In this document: positions 18,033-24,116 of the stretch, in pieces | Layout of the letters: every line of letters begins with the position of its first letter | Numbering within the stretch: the first letter of the stretch is position 1 | NCBI GenBank assembly: GCA_943846595.1 | Contig: OX044355.1 | Coordinates: forward strand, 558,001 to 622,000 | DNA: 64,000 bases | Source of the DNA: an uncultured Polaribacter sp. | GTDB lineage: Bacteria; Bacteroidota; Bacteroidia; Flavobacteriales; Flavobacteriaceae | Direction: 5' to 3' | Made by a program: the position numbers and the translations under genes | The notes under the pieces: generated by a model | Seen by the model: the letters and a program-made list of their open reading frames with translations, nothing else | Told to the model about the DNA's origin: nothing | Databases searched by the model: none

Positions 18033-19082
18033 TTATACTTCCTCTTTCATCGGATTCCAGCCTTGAGCTTTTAGCTCAATTTCTTGGCTGGCTCTCGTCA
18101 CCAAGTTCAATCCTTGGTTTTCTTCCGTAATGTGCCCAATAATAGAAAAATTTGGGTTTCCTTTCATTTTTTCAAAATCGGCAATCGGCACCGTAAAAAG
18201 CAATTCGTAATCTTCACCGCCACTCAAAGCGACCATGGTCGAATCCAATTCAAATTCTTCACAAGCAGAAATTACTTGAGGGTCTAAAGGCAATTTTTCT
18301 TCGTAGATTTTACACCCCACCTTACTTTGCGAACAAATGTGCATGATTTCTGAGGAAAGACCGTCAGAAATATCAATCATGGCCGTTGGTTTTACGTCCA
18401 ATTCTTTCAACCAACCCACTACATCTTTTCGAACTTCCGGTTTTAATTGTCGTTCAATTAAATACGTATAATTGTCTAGGTCTGGCTGATTCTTTGGATC
18501 TACCGCAAACACTTGCTTTTCTCTTTCTAACACTTGTAAGCCTAAATAAGCAGCCCCTAAATCTCCAGTAACTACAATTAAGTCGGTTACTTTTGCGCCG
18601 TGTCTGTAAACAATATCTTCCGCTTTTGCAGTTCCAATGGCCGTTACAGAAATTAGCATTCCTTTGGTAGAAGAGGTGGTATCTCCACCCACTAAATCTA
18701 CCTGATAGGTATCACAAGCCAGCTGAATTCCCGCATACAATTCCTCAATTGCTTCCAATGGAAAACGATTAGAAACGGCAATCGAAACCGTAATCTGAGT
18801 GGCTTTCCCATTCATCGCGTACACATCCGATAGGTTGACCATGACTGCCTTATAACCTAGATGCTTTAATGGCATATAGCTTAAATCAAAATGCACTCCT
18901 TCGATCAATAAATCGGTGGTAACTAAGGTTTCATCTTGATTGGAAATCACCGCAGCATCATCGCCAACAGCATATTTTGTAGTGGCATTCTTAACCGTAA
19001 AATATTGTGTAATATGATTGATTAAACCAAACTCTCCAAGCTCAGCCAACGACGTTTTTTGTGGGTTTTTATCTTCTAACAT
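18033..19082 (-). CDS. thiL: Thiamine-monophosphate kinase
   Basis: Phosphorylates thiamine monophosphate to the active cofactor thiamine diphosphate. It has the AIR-synthase-like fold, with the ATP/Mg motif GDDAAVI near residue 40, MVNLSDVYAMNG, and the GGDTTSST block. The frame extends to a start at 19115, but the ATG at 19082 gives the conserved MLEDKNPQKTSLAELGEFGLI start and follows a -7 box by 4 nt. The product is 349 aa. No TPP riboswitch was seen upstream. No other thiamine gene is nearby. Confidence 0.95.
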   Translation of the reverse strand: MLEDKNPQKTSLAELGEFGLINHITQYFTVKNATTKYAVGDDAAVISNQDETLVTTDLLIEGVHFDLSYMPLKHLGYKAVMVNLSDVYAMNGKATQITVSIAVSNRFPLEAIEELYAGIQLACDTYQVDLVGGDTTSSTKGMLISVTAIGTAKAEDIVYRHGAKVTDLIVVTGDLGAAYLGLQVLEREKQVFAVDPKNQPDLDNYTYLIERQLKPEVRKDVVGWLKELDVKPTAMIDISDGLSSEIMHICSQSKVGCKIYEEKLPLDPQVISACEEFELDSTMVALSGGEDYELLFTVPIADFEKMKGNPNFSIIGHITEENQGLNLVTRASQEIELKAQGWNPMKEEV

Positions 19083-19292: not shown

Positions 19293-20501
19293 ATGTATAA
19301 AAAAGCACTATTTATTTCTTTAACCCTCTTAATTGGCTGTACCAAAAAAGATGTTTTCGAAGAAACTCCCTTTATTGGAGAGCCTTTGGCAAAATGCATC
19401 AACGGTTTTGCAGGTGAATACCCTTGTAATAACTACGATTTATTGGCACATATTTCTTTAACCGATTTAAATCTTTCTACTGCTGGAAATGATTGTTGGG
19501 GCTGGACAGATCCTCTGACCAACAACGAATATGCTTTAATGGGTTCAAATAAAACACTAACGTTTATTGATATTACAGATCCAATAAACCCTAAAATAAT
19601 GGGCTTTTTAGACACACAAACCGTTTCAAGTTCGTGGCGAGACGTGAAGGTTTTTAACAACCATGCCTATGTCGTCAGTGAAGCAGCAGGGCATGGAATG
19701 CAAGTTTTTGATTTAACGCGATTGCGAGATGTGGTAGATGCTCCCGAAACCTTTTCAAACGATGCTTTTTATTCAGGATTTGGAAAAGCACACAATATTA
19801 TCATCAACGAAGACAGTGGTTTTGCCTATGCAGTTGGAACCAGTAGCTTTTCTGGTGGACCTCATTTTGTAGATATAACCGACCCCCTAAACCCCGTTGC
19901 AGCAGGTGGATTTTCTGGTGGAGGGTATTCTCACGATGCACAAGTAGTTACTTACAAAGGCCCAGACACAGACTATACAGACAAAGAAATTTTAATTGGT
20001 AGTAACGCAAACCAAGTTGTTATTGTGGATGTTACCGACAAATCGGCTCCCATAACAATTTCGACAATCACCTATCAAAACATTGGGTACACCCACCAAG
20101 GCTGGTTTACAGAAAACCAACAATACTTCATTTTAGGAGATGAATTAGATGAGCGTGATTTTGGAGGAAATACGAGAACAATTGTTTTCGATTTTACCGA
20201 TTTGGACAACCCTATTTATCATACAGAATATATTGGACCAACAGCCGCAATAGATCATAACGGCTACACAAAAGGAACTACCTATTTTCAGGCAAATTAC
20301 ACCGCCGGAGTACGAATGATCGACCTCAGCAATATCGAGGCTAAAAGCTTTACTGAAATTGGATCTTTCGACACCTATCCAGAAAATGATTTGGCTAGCT
20401 TTAGAGGCACCTGGAATGTATACCCTTATTTCCAAAGTGGCAATATTATTATCAGTGATATCAATCGTGGGTTCTTTATTATCAGAAAAAGTGGCTCCTA
20501 A
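19293..20501 (+). CDS. Choice-of-anchor B family lipoprotein (LVIVD-type propeller)
   Basis: A 402-residue lipoprotein with lipobox LLIGC (Cys16). The body carries repeats of the LVIVD type, such as LTFIDITDPINPKIMGFLD, FVDITDPLNPVAAGGF and VIVDVTDKSAPITIS. These predict a beta-propeller on the cell surface or in the periplasm. It is the first of four lipoprotein genes that end with an MbnP/MbnH-like pair. The gap to the next gene is 15 bases, so co-transcription is likely. Members often occur beside MbnP-like genes, but their function is not established. Confidence 0.88.
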   Translation: MYKKALFISLTLLIGCTKKDVFEETPFIGEPLAKCINGFAGEYPCNNYDLLAHISLTDLNLSTAGNDCWGWTDPLTNNEYALMGSNKTLTFIDITDPINPKIMGFLDTQTVSSSWRDVKVFNNHAYVVSEAAGHGMQVFDLTRLRDVVDAPETFSNDAFYSGFGKAHNIIINEDSGFAYAVGTSSFSGGPHFVDITDPLNPVAAGGFSGGGYSHDAQVVTYKGPDTDYTDKEILIGSNANQVVIVDVTDKSAPITISTITYQNIGYTHQGWFTENQQYFILGDELDERDFGGNTRTIVFDFTDLDNPIYHTEYIGPTAAIDHNGYTKGTTYFQANYTAGVRMIDLSNIEAKSFTEIGSFDTYPENDLASFRGTWNVYPYFQSGNIIISDINRGFFIIRKSGS

Positions 20502-20516
20502 AATCAATCCCAAAAA

Positions 20517-21842
20517 ATGAAAGTATTTTACTTTTTTGTGTGTTGTCTTATGCTCTTGAATTGTTCGAAAAAGGAACCACTTTCTTTTCCTATTTCAGAA
20601 GGTTCTTTGGGAGAAATTACGACCATCAAAAACTATGGAGGTTCTAAAAATGATGTTGCCAATGCGGTTGTAAAAACACAAGATGGAGGAGCTGCAGTTT
20701 TAGGCTATACGCAAAGCATCAATGGAGATATTTCTGATAAAACTGTCGAAGATTTTGATTTTTGGATATTGAAATTAGATGCAGAAAACAACATCCAATG
20801 GAGTAAAACCTTTGGTGGATCGGAAGACGATCGAGGAAATGATATCCTACAAACTAAAGATGGTGGTTTTGCTATTTTGGGCTACAGTACAAGTTCCAAT
20901 CTAGATGTTCCAGGAAATGCGGGTTCGCAGGATTTTTGGATGATAAAACTAGATGCAAACGGTACGATTTCTTGGAGTAAAACCTTTGGATATTTAGGAG
21001 CAGACTTCGGCACGACCCTATTACAAACTGCCGACAATAGCTATTTAATCACAGGAGTTTTAGATGTTACGGCATCAGGAGGGCAAGGGAATTCAAGAAA
21101 TTCACAAAGACATGCCGGAGGTGATATTTGGGCGATAAAACTAAGCGAAAACGGCGACTTACAGTGGAGTAAATATTTTGGCGGCTCTTTTACAGACGCT
21201 CCTTTTGGAATTGTCGAAACGGAAGATCACAATTTTATAATCGCAGGTTCATCAGACAGTGCCGATGTAGATATTTCAAACAACAACGGTTCGTATGACT
21301 TTTGGGTACTTAAAATAACTTCCAATGGGAGTTTGCTTTGGGAACGAAGTTTTGGAGGATCAGAAATTGACGAAGCAAGAGCCATTACTGCCACCAATGA
21401 CGGAAACTTTATCATTGTTGGCGACACCAGAAGTGCAGATAAAGATGTATCAAATAATCATGGAGCAGCAGATGTCTGGATCATTAAGATGAATACGGAC
21501 GGGAACTTAATTTGGGAAAAAACAATTGGTGGAAGCAGCTTTGATGTTGCCCGTTCCGTTGCTAGAGCACAAGACAATGGTTTTATTATTTCAGGAAGTT
21601 CTCGGAGCTTGAATGAGGGTTTTACAAATCAAGGACAAAATGATGCCCTGCTTTTAAAAATAGATGCCGAAGGGAACCTCGTTTGGAAGCAAACCATTGG
21701 CGGAGATGAAATTGACTATTTTTACGATGCAGTTCAACTCAACAACGCAAGCATTATTGCTGTTGGAGAAACCAATAGTTCTAATGGAGACTTAACCGAA
21801 AACAAAGGGTTTTCTGATGCTTTAATTATAAAAACAAACTAA
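20517..21842 (+). CDS. Repeat-containing propeller-like lipoprotein
   Basis: A 441-residue lipoprotein with lipobox LLNC (Cys16). After it come about seven copies of a 50-60-residue unit built on W-S-K-T-F-G-G-S, then a D-D-G-G-F or similar turn, then DFWILKLDANG-like strands (for example FGGSEDDRGNDILQTKDGGF). This is the pattern of a beta-propeller. The unit is highly regular, with copies at roughly 80, 140, 210, 265, 320 and 375. The gene is 1 base from the next, so they are translationally close. The function is unknown. Confidence 0.85.
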   Translation: MKVFYFFVCCLMLLNCSKKEPLSFPISEGSLGEITTIKNYGGSKNDVANAVVKTQDGGAAVLGYTQSINGDISDKTVEDFDFWILKLDAENNIQWSKTFGGSEDDRGNDILQTKDGGFAILGYSTSSNLDVPGNAGSQDFWMIKLDANGTISWSKTFGYLGADFGTTLLQTADNSYLITGVLDVTASGGQGNSRNSQRHAGGDIWAIKLSENGDLQWSKYFGGSFTDAPFGIVETEDHNFIIAGSSDSADVDISNNNGSYDFWVLKITSNGSLLWERSFGGSEIDEARAITATNDGNFIIVGDTRSADKDVSNNHGAADVWIIKMNTDGNLIWEKTIGGSSFDVARSVARAQDNGFIISGSSRSLNEGFTNQGQNDALLLKIDAEGNLVWKQTIGGDEIDYFYDAVQLNNASIIAVGETNSSNGDLTENKGFSDALIIKTN

Positions 21843-21843
21843 T

Positions 21844-22599
21844 ATGAGAATGCTATTATTTCTCTTAACCGGACTATTAGCATGGAGTGCTTGCAGTTCT
21901 CCAGAGGAAGCGCAAAGCGCAAGTGTAGCCGTCCGATTTTCTCACAATTGGGAAAATACACCCGTGAACGCTGCAGATTTTAATATCCTAAAATTTACCA
22001 ATGAAAATGGTGAAATGCTCAGTATCGAAAGGTTGAGATATTTAGTTTCAAATGTGATTTTAACAAGTGCAAGCAATGAAATTTACAAACTTTCATCTTA
22101 TCAATTAGTAAACCTTGGTGAAGAGAAAGTAACAATAGAAGGCAACGAAGTGCCTGTAGGAGACTACAAGCTCTCCTTTGTTTTTGGATTTACAGATACC
22201 GAAAATGTGGATGGAAGCTATCCAGATTTAAATACAGCTTCGTTTAACGTGCCGGGAATGCTTGGTGGTGGCTATCATTTTATGCAATTTGACGGAAAAT
22301 ATGTTGGTCAAAGTCTAGCACCAGCAGCGTTTAATTACCATGTTATTAGTGCTGTTAATAGCGCAGATCCCAACAATTTAATCTTTCAAGACACTTCCTT
22401 TAAAGTAGATCTTGGAGTCGTTAGCATATCCGCAACTACTGAAATTGAAATAAAAATGAACATTGCCGAATGGTTTAAAAACCCAAATACATGGGATTTA
22501 AATGTCCTAAATACCGTTTTAATGCCAAATTTCGATGCGCAAATTTTAATGCATCAAAATGGAAAATCGGTTTTTAGTTTGGGAGCAGTACAAGAATAA
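21844..22599 (+). CDS. MbnP-like lipoprotein
   Basis: A 251-residue lipoprotein (LAWSAC, Cys17) resembling the MbnP family: N-terminal VAVRFSHNWENTP, then LSIERLRYLVSNVIL, FVFGFTDTENVDG and a HFMQFDGKYV segment. In methanotrophs MbnP binds copper, and a Trp in it is converted to kynurenine by the di-haem enzyme MbnH. The adjacent downstream gene here encodes a di-haem peroxidase, which supports the assignment. Candidate Trp residues are W36 and two in EWFKNPNTWDL. The copper or kynurenine role in this organism is inference. Confidence 0.8.
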   Translation: MRMLLFLLTGLLAWSACSSPEEAQSASVAVRFSHNWENTPVNAADFNILKFTNENGEMLSIERLRYLVSNVILTSASNEIYKLSSYQLVNLGEEKVTIEGNEVPVGDYKLSFVFGFTDTENVDGSYPDLNTASFNVPGMLGGGYHFMQFDGKYVGQSLAPAAFNYHVISAVNSADPNNLIFQDTSFKVDLGVVSISATTEIEIKMNIAEWFKNPNTWDLNVLNTVLMPNFDAQILMHQNGKSVFSLGAVQE

Positions 22600-22622
22600 A
22601 AAACACTATTTTAAGAGAAAAA

Positions 22623-23681
22623 ATGAAAAACAACGGTATTTTTCTACTTGCTATTTTTCTTTTGATGCAATGCACATCAAAAGAAACAACAATGTACACT
22701 CCTGTACCTTATAATTTAGAAATTCCAACACTCTTTGCCAACAAGTTAATTGCTCCTATAATTCCCGCAAACAATCCACTTACAGAAGAAGGAGTTGCCT
22801 TAGGAAAAAAATTGTTTTTTGACAGAAAACTTTCTGGAAACAACACACAGTCCTGTGCTACCTGCCATAGTCCACAGAAATCATTTGCCAATAACCGACA
22901 ATTTAGCGAAGGAGTTCAAGGAATTTTAGGAACTAGAAATTCAATGCCTTTATTCAATTTAGCATGGAATTTTGACGAACGCTTCGCTTGGGACGGAAAA
23001 GAAGTAGGTTTGGAAAAACAGGCCTTAGAACCTGTAAAAAACCCAATAGAAATGCATGCTAATTGGGAAACTGTCGCAGAAAAATTACAAGCAAGTCCTG
23101 AATATCCAGATTTATTTTTACAAGCCTTTGGAAGTTCGGAAATCGATGCTGTTTTAATCACAAGAGCGCTTGCTCAATTTGAAAGAACCCTGATTTCTGG
23201 AAACTCAAAATTTGATCGATATTTGAATGGAGAAACTACGCTAACTCCCCAAGAATCTGCTGGATTTAATGTTTTTATGGACGAAGCCAAAGGAGATTGC
23301 TTCCATTGCCATGGGAGCGATAACAATCCCCTTTGGACAGACAATAAGTTTCACAATAACGGATTGGATAGCAACTTTTCAGACCTGGGCTTAGGCGCTG
23401 TAACTGGCGACACAAACGATAATGGTAAGTTTAAATCACCATCACTTCGGAATTTAATATTTACCGCACCCTATATGCACGATGGTCGTTTTGCAACTTT
23501 AGACGAAGTCATCCAGCATTATTCGGAAGGCCTCCAACCCTCGGCAACTATTGACCCTTTAATGAAAAAAGTGAATCAAGGCGGTGTGGGTTTGTCCCTG
23601 CAAGAGAAAGCAAATTTAAAAGCCTTTTTATTATCCCTTAGTGATCCAGATTTCGTCAACAATCCAGTCTTTAGAGAATAA
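22623..23681 (+). CDS. Di-haem cytochrome c peroxidase family lipoprotein (MbnH-like)
   Basis: A 352-residue lipoprotein (lipobox LMQC, Cys17) with two c-type haem sites, CATCH near residue 78 and CFHCH near residue 222. Other family landmarks are LGKKLFFDRKLSGN, LFNLAWNFDERFAWDG and APYMHDGRFATLDEV. It belongs to the bacterial CcP/MauG superfamily. Next to an MbnP-like gene, the MbnH-type partner is the best reading, acting on the neighbour instead of on free peroxide. A plain periplasmic peroxidase cannot be excluded. It is the last gene of the four-gene lipoprotein operon. Confidence 0.88.
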   Translation: MKNNGIFLLAIFLLMQCTSKETTMYTPVPYNLEIPTLFANKLIAPIIPANNPLTEEGVALGKKLFFDRKLSGNNTQSCATCHSPQKSFANNRQFSEGVQGILGTRNSMPLFNLAWNFDERFAWDGKEVGLEKQALEPVKNPIEMHANWETVAEKLQASPEYPDLFLQAFGSSEIDAVLITRALAQFERTLISGNSKFDRYLNGETTLTPQESAGFNVFMDEAKGDCFHCHGSDNNPLWTDNKFHNNGLDSNFSDLGLGAVTGDTNDNGKFKSPSLRNLIFTAPYMHDGRFATLDEVIQHYSEGLQPSATIDPLMKKVNQGGVGLSLQEKANLKAFLLSLSDPDFVNNPVFRE

Positions 23682-23747: not shown

Positions 23748-23755
23748 TATATTTG
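23748..23755 (+). promoter_or_regulatory. -7 promoter box of the suf operon
   Basis: TATATTTG matches TAnnTTTG, 31 nt before the sufA ATG at 23787. It rules out the longer upstream frame from 23703. Confidence 0.6.
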
Positions 23756-23786: not shown

Positions 23787-24116
23787 ATGATAAAAGTTTC
23801 AGACACAGCAAAGAAGAAAGTCATACAATTAATGACAGATGATGGCTTCGACGCGACCAATGACTTTGTAAGAGTTGGTGTAAAAAGCGGTGGTTGTTCA
23901 GGTTTGTCTTACGATTTAACTTTTGATAACAAAAGAAAAGAAAACGATAAGGTTTTTGAAGAGAACGATGTGAAAATTATCGTTGACAAAAAAAGTTTTT
24001 TATATTTAGTGGGAACTACCTTAGAATATTCTGGAGGTTTAAATGGAAAAGGATTTGTTTTTAACAACCCGAATGCCAATAGAACTTGTGGATGTGGAGA
24101 AAGTTTTTCGCTTTAA
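23787..24116 (+). CDS. sufA: HesB/IscA-type iron-sulfur carrier, SufA-like
   Basis: A small A-type carrier (109 aa) that passes Fe-S clusters from the SufBCD scaffold to target proteins. Three conserved Cys are visible, one in SGGCSG and two in the C-terminal CGCGESF. The start at 23787 (MIKVSDTAKKKVIQLM) is preferred over 23703 because the promoter box lies between them. It is the first gene of sufA-B-C-D, with 13 bases to sufB. Confidence 0.93.
   Translation: MIKVSDTAKKKVIQLMTDDGFDATNDFVRVGVKSGGCSGLSYDLTFDNKRKENDKVFEENDVKIIVDKKSFLYLVGTTLEYSGGLNGKGFVFNNPNANRTCGCGESFSL

Follow-up and report, generated by a model that had tools for sequence, protein, structure and literature searches.

A predicted four-lipoprotein cassette of marine flavobacteria with an MbnP-MbnH pair that lacks the kynurenine tryptophan

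The four-gene locus and its conservation

A stretch of 64,000 nucleotides from an uncultured Polaribacter sp. (GCA_943846595.1, contig OX044355.1, positions 558,001 to 622,000), here called the window, carries on its plus strand four consecutive open reading frames (ORFs), spaced by 15, 1 and 23 bases (window positions 19293-23681), that encode two propeller-type proteins named chB and g2, an MbnP-like protein and a MauG/MbnH-like di-haem enzyme (Table 1). A sequence-only reading of this DNA had proposed such a run of genes with these gaps, ending in an MbnP-like protein and a di-haem enzyme of the MbnH type; the ORF coordinates and profile matches confirm it, with the former protein recognised by PF20243 and the latter by CCP_MauG (198.7 bits, cut-off 25.6), the CATCH and CFHCH motifs of the enzyme lying at residues 78-82 and 226-230. 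According to the excerpted text of a 2013 methanobactin survey, the MbnP-MbnH pair is conserved far past the methanobactin producers (PMC3621798). Here, too, methanobactin genes had been noted as missing, and indeed TIGR04159 (MbnB) gave no match in the genome to which the window belongs, which is 98.7% complete. As judged from the comparisons below, what sets this locus apart is an MbnP-MbnH pair of marine flavobacteria that is without the tryptophan of the known kynurenine site and is tied to a four-lipoprotein cassette.

Table 1. Genes and elements of the cassette and its flanks, in window coordinates
Feature	Position	Strand	Evidence
chB, choice-of-anchor B family lipoprotein, LIGC lipobox	19293..20501	+	TIGR04312 555.3 bits, cut-off 100
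g2, SBBP-type seven-bladed beta-propeller lipoprotein (predicted)	20517..21842	+	AF2 model, Foldseek match to CylK, C16 invariant
A-type MbnP, MbnP-fold lipoprotein without WxW	21844..22599	+	PF20243 98.5 bits, cut-off 27; match to 7l6g
A-type MbnH, MauG/MbnH-like di-haem enzyme	22623..23681	+	6e1c best PDB sequence match; CxxCH motifs
Promoter element TAnnTTTG (-7 type) for the iscA-suf genes that follow; marks the cassette end	23748..23755	+	53/53 MbnH-IscA stretches
First gene of the iscA-sufBCD block, IscA/SufA-like; neighbour outside the cassette	23787..24116	+	Downstream in 35/36 slot loci
thiL-like gene, divergent 5' neighbour outside the cassette	18033..19082	-	34/36 slot loci; 72/80 named loci

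Conservation of the locus was followed in a family sample of 149 genomes, 71 of which contain PF20243. With A-type MbnP defined by an E value below 1e-45 to the window protein, 44 of the genomes encode one (45 rows of the PF20243 table). The order chB-g2-MbnP-MbnH was called by script, with a 700-base limit, in 40 of the 45 rows; G039, G063 and G073 have the full order on reading, with a chB frame of 636-678 amino acids directly upstream of g2, and the last two rows are one G124 gene at two contig ends. The four-gene order, on whose conservation the sequence-only reading had staked its proposal, is kept in all 44 genomes with an A-type MbnP, one being broken by a contig end, and g2 lies directly upstream of MbnP in every one of them. 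A-type MbnH was defined as TIGR04039 rows of at least 242 bits, a limit set after the rows had been seen, and with one genome set aside (G135, locus L077, whose 245.9-bit MbnH-like match has no adjoining MbnP); so defined, it occurs in the identical 44 genomes. At the remaining 34 places, occupied by MbnPs of the WxW type or some other type, MbnH is downstream in 33 and chB-g2 is upstream in four. Given these synteny counts, the four-gene arrangement is beyond chance.

A scan of a genome collection returned 453 stretches encoding relatives of the window MbnP, and the nearest among the best 80, referred to as the named loci, come mostly from Polaribacter, Tenacibaculum and Winogradskyella. The full order was uncalled in 15 of the 80: six are without MbnH beside MbnP, in eight g2 was missed by the caller, and one runs into a contig end. 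In the family sample, G131, a genome of the same genus as the window, has no match to chB, g2, MbnP or MbnH.

All four products had been described as carrying lipoboxes. The N-terminal cysteine is invariant in the aligned sequences of MbnP (C17, 78/78), g2 (C16, 50/50, comprising 49 of the 65 available relatives plus the window) and MbnH (C17, 39/39, comprising 38 of 62 plus the window). The LIGC lipobox of chB was read in the window sequence alone, and the lipidation motif of the window MbnP, WSAC, departs from the textbook lipobox. In a search for acidic residues past the lipidation cysteine, a possible mark of surface export, the lipobox pattern was recognised in just 57/94 chB, 48/68 g2, 57/76 MbnP and 30/71 MbnH sequences.

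The description of chB and g2 as beta-propellers is borne out by modeling for g2. Its AlphaFold2 (AF2) model (predicted local distance difference test [pLDDT] score of 91.1) has strands in seven groups of four and resembles the CylK propeller in Foldseek (TM about 0.8, E 1e-25); its match to the SBBP/LipL53 model is weak, at 57 bits (cut-off 400). We take chB to be a propeller from what is known of its family, together with an LVIVD match that stays below threshold (16.3 bits, cut-off 20.2). Phylum-wide, 120 of 395 genomes encode a chB that reaches the TIGR04312 cut-off, and no paper on choice-of-anchor B or TIGR04312 turned up in the literature searched. chB carries a CWGW motif, whose tryptophan was considered as an MbnH substrate and then dropped. 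At three loci (L082 in G090, L083 in G078 and L086 in G087), three to five tandem choice-of-anchor B genes lie directly upstream of g2.

Viewed from g2, the cassette has a wider core. Among the 71 best of the g2 matches listed (at least 292 bits), the MbnP-MbnH pair follows g2 at 48 loci, 44 of them A-type and four WxW-type, while no MbnP is found downstream at the other 23, in all of which chB adjoins g2. In the 20 MbnP-less loci read (G035, G065 and G137 being excluded), the interval from g2 to the IscA-like gene is free of di-haem genes. Because MbnP is missing from 23 of the 71 g2 loci, it is chB-g2 that is kept more widely, as a pair whose chromosomal place next to suf, here called the slot, is fixed; the earlier picture, in which the propellers were added to an MbnP-MbnH pair, is reversed.

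The MbnP fold and the missing kynurenine site

The structural model of A-type MbnP (pLDDT 90.7) matches 7l6g, the Methylosinus MbnP, with a Z score of 16.8 (212 residues; 7.8 for the next entry) and with a Foldseek E value of 7.6e-7; by this modeling, A-type MbnP has a true MbnP fold. The A-type sequence profile gave no match to 7l6g. A 2021 PNAS study reportedly found that Methylosinus MbnP contains kynurenine derived from the first tryptophan of a WxW motif and binds Cu(I) through a methionine and a histidine. The 7l6g segment GMAWNWQAG...HVGS was placed, by a weak profile match (E 0.0049), on M142, W144, W146 and H172, which are invariant in 29 WxW-type proteins of the family; all 29 examined (those of the 34 places with loci returned) have MxWxW.

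The A-type proteins depart from this pattern. Among 105 distinct A-type sequences, 103 are without any WxW and have valine where the first tryptophan would be; four A1 rows identical to A3 rows were counted once, and L113, L116 and L130, whose ORF calls are truncated, were excluded from the 78-row alignment. At the old site the window MbnP reads FNVPGMLGGGYHFM, so that by alignment V136 falls in the column of the kynurenine tryptophan and F134 in that of the methionine, the histidine being kept as H166. The register is fixed by intermediate sequences, which run from MEWP...GGGYHY (L198-L200) through WNWP...GGGYH (L026 and L044) to (F/W)NVP...GGGYH in all others, and it is for this reason that V136 and F134 can be assigned to the old tryptophan and methionine places. 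Profile searches gave a similar division: TIGR04052 (MbnP_like_WxW, cut-off 140 bits) does not match the window MbnP, and at E 0.01 it matches 1 of 31 A-type proteins versus 29 of 29 WxW-type proteins, the sole WxW-type score shown, 47.9 bits, being itself under the cut-off. With both the first WxW tryptophan and the methionine absent from the window protein, the suggestion of a tryptophan-to-kynurenine conversion as in methanotrophs is not supported here, and because that tryptophan is missing, the kynurenine test proposed for this protein was aimed at an absent residue; the protein still has other tryptophans, namely W36, W210 and W217.

Two candidates for a kept kynurenine tryptophan in A-type proteins were rejected. 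One is the residue at column -9, which is phenylalanine in 73 and tryptophan in 32 of the 105 sequences and phenylalanine in the window; the other is the WNWP of L026 and L044. Separately, L198-L201 encode distant MbnPs that belong to other families within the phylum and in which the A-type GGGYHYM and W210 stand together with a tryptophan at the old site (within MEWP in L198-L200); a di-haem gene lies downstream.

A second motif sets the two types apart. EWFKNPNTW, which contains W210 and W217, is present in 105/105 A-type MbnPs and in 0/29 WxW-type proteins; four A-like distant relatives share W210 and have tyrosine at 217. No variation is seen at H145, M147, H166 and M227 across the 78 aligned A-type sequences. 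Compared with Methylosinus MbnP (7l6g, TIGR04052), A-type MbnP thus shares the fold, the histidine column and an adjoining MauG-like gene, and differs in having no WxW, a phenylalanine at the methionine column, a shorter chain (251 amino acids), the conserved W210/W217, linkage to two propeller-type lipoproteins and no MbnB found in the genome.

The WxW-type pairs of the same family are made of the same two protein families in the same order and differ in keeping MxWxW. In four loci (L086-L089, from G087, G118, G096 and G102) they occupy the chB-g2/suf slot, as if the types had been swapped in place, and such pairs offer natural controls. Outside the slot there are 25 WxW-type loci, of which 18 have a small CxGKC protein and nine a CDxCxC protein encoded within 1.5-kb flanks, the former upstream in L097 and L100 and the latter downstream in L099-L101, for example; neither was found in 111 A-type loci (which include four repeats) or in the four slot WxW-type loci. 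Since these cysteine-rich neighbours are confined to WxW-type loci outside the slot, the metal-like gene context belongs to the WxW type rather than to the A-type, and it is possible that a WxW-type pair and its small cysteine-rich proteins form a metal-handling unit. Another known system, likened here by description, is MopE/CorA with SACCP/CorB; according to the excerpted text of PMC3912023, this is a copper protein of the cell surface that contains kynurenine and whose partner gene encodes a di-haem protein.

The MbnH enzyme and its partner

By sequence, the best PDB match of the window MbnH is 6e1c, the MbnH of M. trichosporium (E 2.4e-53, and 3e-68 by profile), which stands above all peroxidases. 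The two enzymes share both CxxCH motifs and a tyrosine at the ligand column and are colinear over residues 34-351; the A-type enzyme differs in scoring 260 bits against TIGR04039, under the cut-off of 362.85, and in grouping apart from the WxW-partner enzymes. In a 57-row tree, from which L010, L029, L058 and L060 were omitted, A-type and WxW-type MbnH form separate groups (support 100/95). With respect to MauG, which makes tryptophan tryptophylquinone, the A-type enzyme scores 194.6 bits against TIGR03791 over residues 53-339, not reaching the cut-off of 443.85, and its profile matches MauG chains over residues 59-302.

All 29 A-type MbnH rows have two CxxCH motifs, the inter-haem tryptophan (W123), the distal glutamine (Q133) and glutamate (E143) and a tyrosine (Y300). 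Among 20 WxW-type rows, the tyrosine is found in 20 (including 4/4 from the slot), the inter-haem tryptophan in 19 and the glutamine in 13. MauG has roles for Trp, Gln, Glu and Tyr, and a tyrosine is a haem ligand in both MauG and MbnH. By profile, Y300 is aligned with the tyrosine of 6e1c and with a methionine of the peroxidase 3o5c, which alone of the four peroxidases shown has an alignment that reaches this column; in the Neisseria peroxidase NgBCCP, the excerpted text of PMC10094543 gives Met280 as the ligand of the E haem. Three MbnH-like proteins (L027, L028 and L030) have F or L at the tyrosine column and SFG in place of HDG, next to MbnPs that keep WxW (WEW in L027); perhaps these enzymes carry out a different chemistry or are in decay.

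Evidence on the relation between enzyme and partner came from genomes in which the two genes are parted. An A-type MbnP without an adjoining MbnH occurs at six loci among the 80 named ones (five from Polaribacter and one from a "Bacteroidia bacterium"). Each of these genomes nevertheless encodes a single A-type copy of either protein, the MbnH being 72-75% identical to that of the window and adjoining IscA and SufB elsewhere in the genome; weaker matches of other types are also present in some of the six. The MbnP stayed with chB, and with g2 where that was called, away from MbnH, and at the 44 MbnP positions where at least 95% of 72 sequences agree, none of the six genomes shows a change. As the break fell between MbnP and MbnH and yet both were kept, this speaks more for an enzyme that works in trans on MbnP than for a mere common transcript. 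We consider it probable that MbnH acts on A-type MbnP.

Candidate functions and the suf neighbourhood

A large flavobacterial subfamily without the kynurenine tryptophan has thus kept the enzyme (44/44 genomes in the family sample, 6/6 among the parted genomes), which raises the question of what else MauG-like enzymes can do to an MbnP scaffold; the A-type pair may carry out some other modification. The reading that we tentatively favour, with a confidence a little short of even, is that MbnH is a dedicated MauG-like enzyme whose divergent MbnP substrate is modified at another place, both being part of a four-lipoprotein envelope module. MbnH would then be an oxidase dedicated to its MbnP that acts in trans outside the inner membrane. 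Because the WxW tryptophan is gone, MbnP would be oxidised elsewhere, likeliest at W210/W217 within EWFKNPNTW, to yield a modified residue or a cross-link and thereby a redox or metal site, for which H145, M147, H166 and M227 are candidate contributors, and the propellers chB and g2 would dock or present the finished MbnP. That W210 and W217 are the modification target is possible rather than likely on this sequence evidence. The boldest version of the favoured reading, in which A-type MbnH oxidises or cross-links W210 and W217 by MauG-like chemistry on an MbnP scaffold, giving a new protein-derived cofactor in which the modified residue has been switched while enzyme and fold are kept, we regard as unlikely as a whole.

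Several observations weigh against the favoured reading, and its least secure part is that W210/W217 were singled out, as these residues could be structural: the model places W210 in a short helix (residues 207-211), and the conservation of the two residues may serve folding. L198-L201 keep the old tryptophan and already have W210, and L026 and L044 hold an old-site tryptophan together with W210/W217; since relatives that keep the old tryptophan already carry W210, it is not simply a replacement. On the side of the enzyme, the TIGR04039 cut-off is reached by none of the 149 family genomes, and the MbnH residues besides Tyr300 are common to ordinary peroxidases. Joint retention within one operon can also reflect linkage, and chB-g2 manages without the pair at the 23 g2 loci described above.

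That MbnH is an ordinary peroxidase, removing peroxide or serving an electron transfer system, with MbnP as its unmodified docking or electron transfer partner, seems improbable. The CCP_MauG match would suit such an enzyme, as would W123, Q133 and E143, which are spaced like Trp98, Gln108 and Glu118 of the Neisseria peroxidase in the excerpted text of PMC10094543. Against this, all 29 A-type rows have tyrosine at the column that is methionine in 3o5c, and the best PDB match is an MbnH, above all peroxidases. A one-to-one partner is also untypical of peroxidases.

It is also quite improbable that chB-g2 has nothing to do with MbnP-MbnH and that the two units are merely co-located. The MbnP-less g2 loci point in that direction, and so do the 30 of 34 other-type MbnP places that have no chB-g2; however, the unbroken adjacency of g2 to A-type MbnP in the family sample, the sharing of the slot by four WxW-type pairs and the parted genomes, in which MbnP kept chB (and g2 where called) and not MbnH, argue for a connection.

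Very improbable, in turn, is the canonical site, in which MbnH would turn an MbnP tryptophan into kynurenine at the established position and the protein would bind Cu(I). The fold, the enzyme family and the copper-site histidine (H166) are those of the known system; nevertheless, the window has Val136 for the tryptophan and Phe134 at the methionine column, WxW occurs in just 2 of 105 A-type proteins, TIGR04052 divides the types as described, and the cysteine-rich neighbours are missing from all A-type loci in which they were sought. The link to copper drawn in the sequence-only reading finds no backing among the A-type loci, where nothing tying the pair to copper was found and the 111 loci have no cysteine-rich neighbour, and a copper function by analogy was dropped, as the canonical site is absent and metal-type neighbours were not found. 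If the A-type system does handle a metal, it is unlikely that this metal is copper.

Least probable of all is that the cassette serves Suf-dependent metabolism because it lies beside iscA-suf: an IscA-like gene is indeed downstream at nearly all slot loci, yet iscA has its own promoter element in every stretch inspected, no suf gene was found in the examined flanks of the six parted chB-(g2)-MbnP loci, shared ancestry of gene order within one family accounts for the adjacency, and the cassette proteins are lipoproteins whereas Suf is cytoplasmic.

The neighbourhood itself was read at 36 slot loci (20 without MbnP, 15 with MbnP, and the window), with an IscA-like gene downstream in 35 and thiL on the other side in 34; the sole locus without an IscA-like gene is L077 (G135). 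The start codon of IscA was picked from the 109-amino-acid length of its homologs, and thiL is a putative name, given from the look of the protein sequence. TAnnTTTG, which we take to be the Bacteroidota -7 element, occurs in 53/53 MbnH-IscA stretches, defined as the gap plus 80 bases at those of the 80 named loci where the ORF caller set IscA beside MbnH; letter shuffles gave a mean of 7.2 and a maximum of 15. From this pattern, suf seems to have its own promoter element. Upstream of chB, the same element was found in 39 of 69 gaps. The suf neighbourhood is best read as inherited gene order within one family, and because of this inherited order, the promoter element of suf and the breakable adjacency, a functional link between cassette and suf was dropped. 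Downstream of the parted MbnP in L114, a block that by eye looks like MoxR, DUF58 and Bat follows, and similar gene lengths are seen in L134 and L168.

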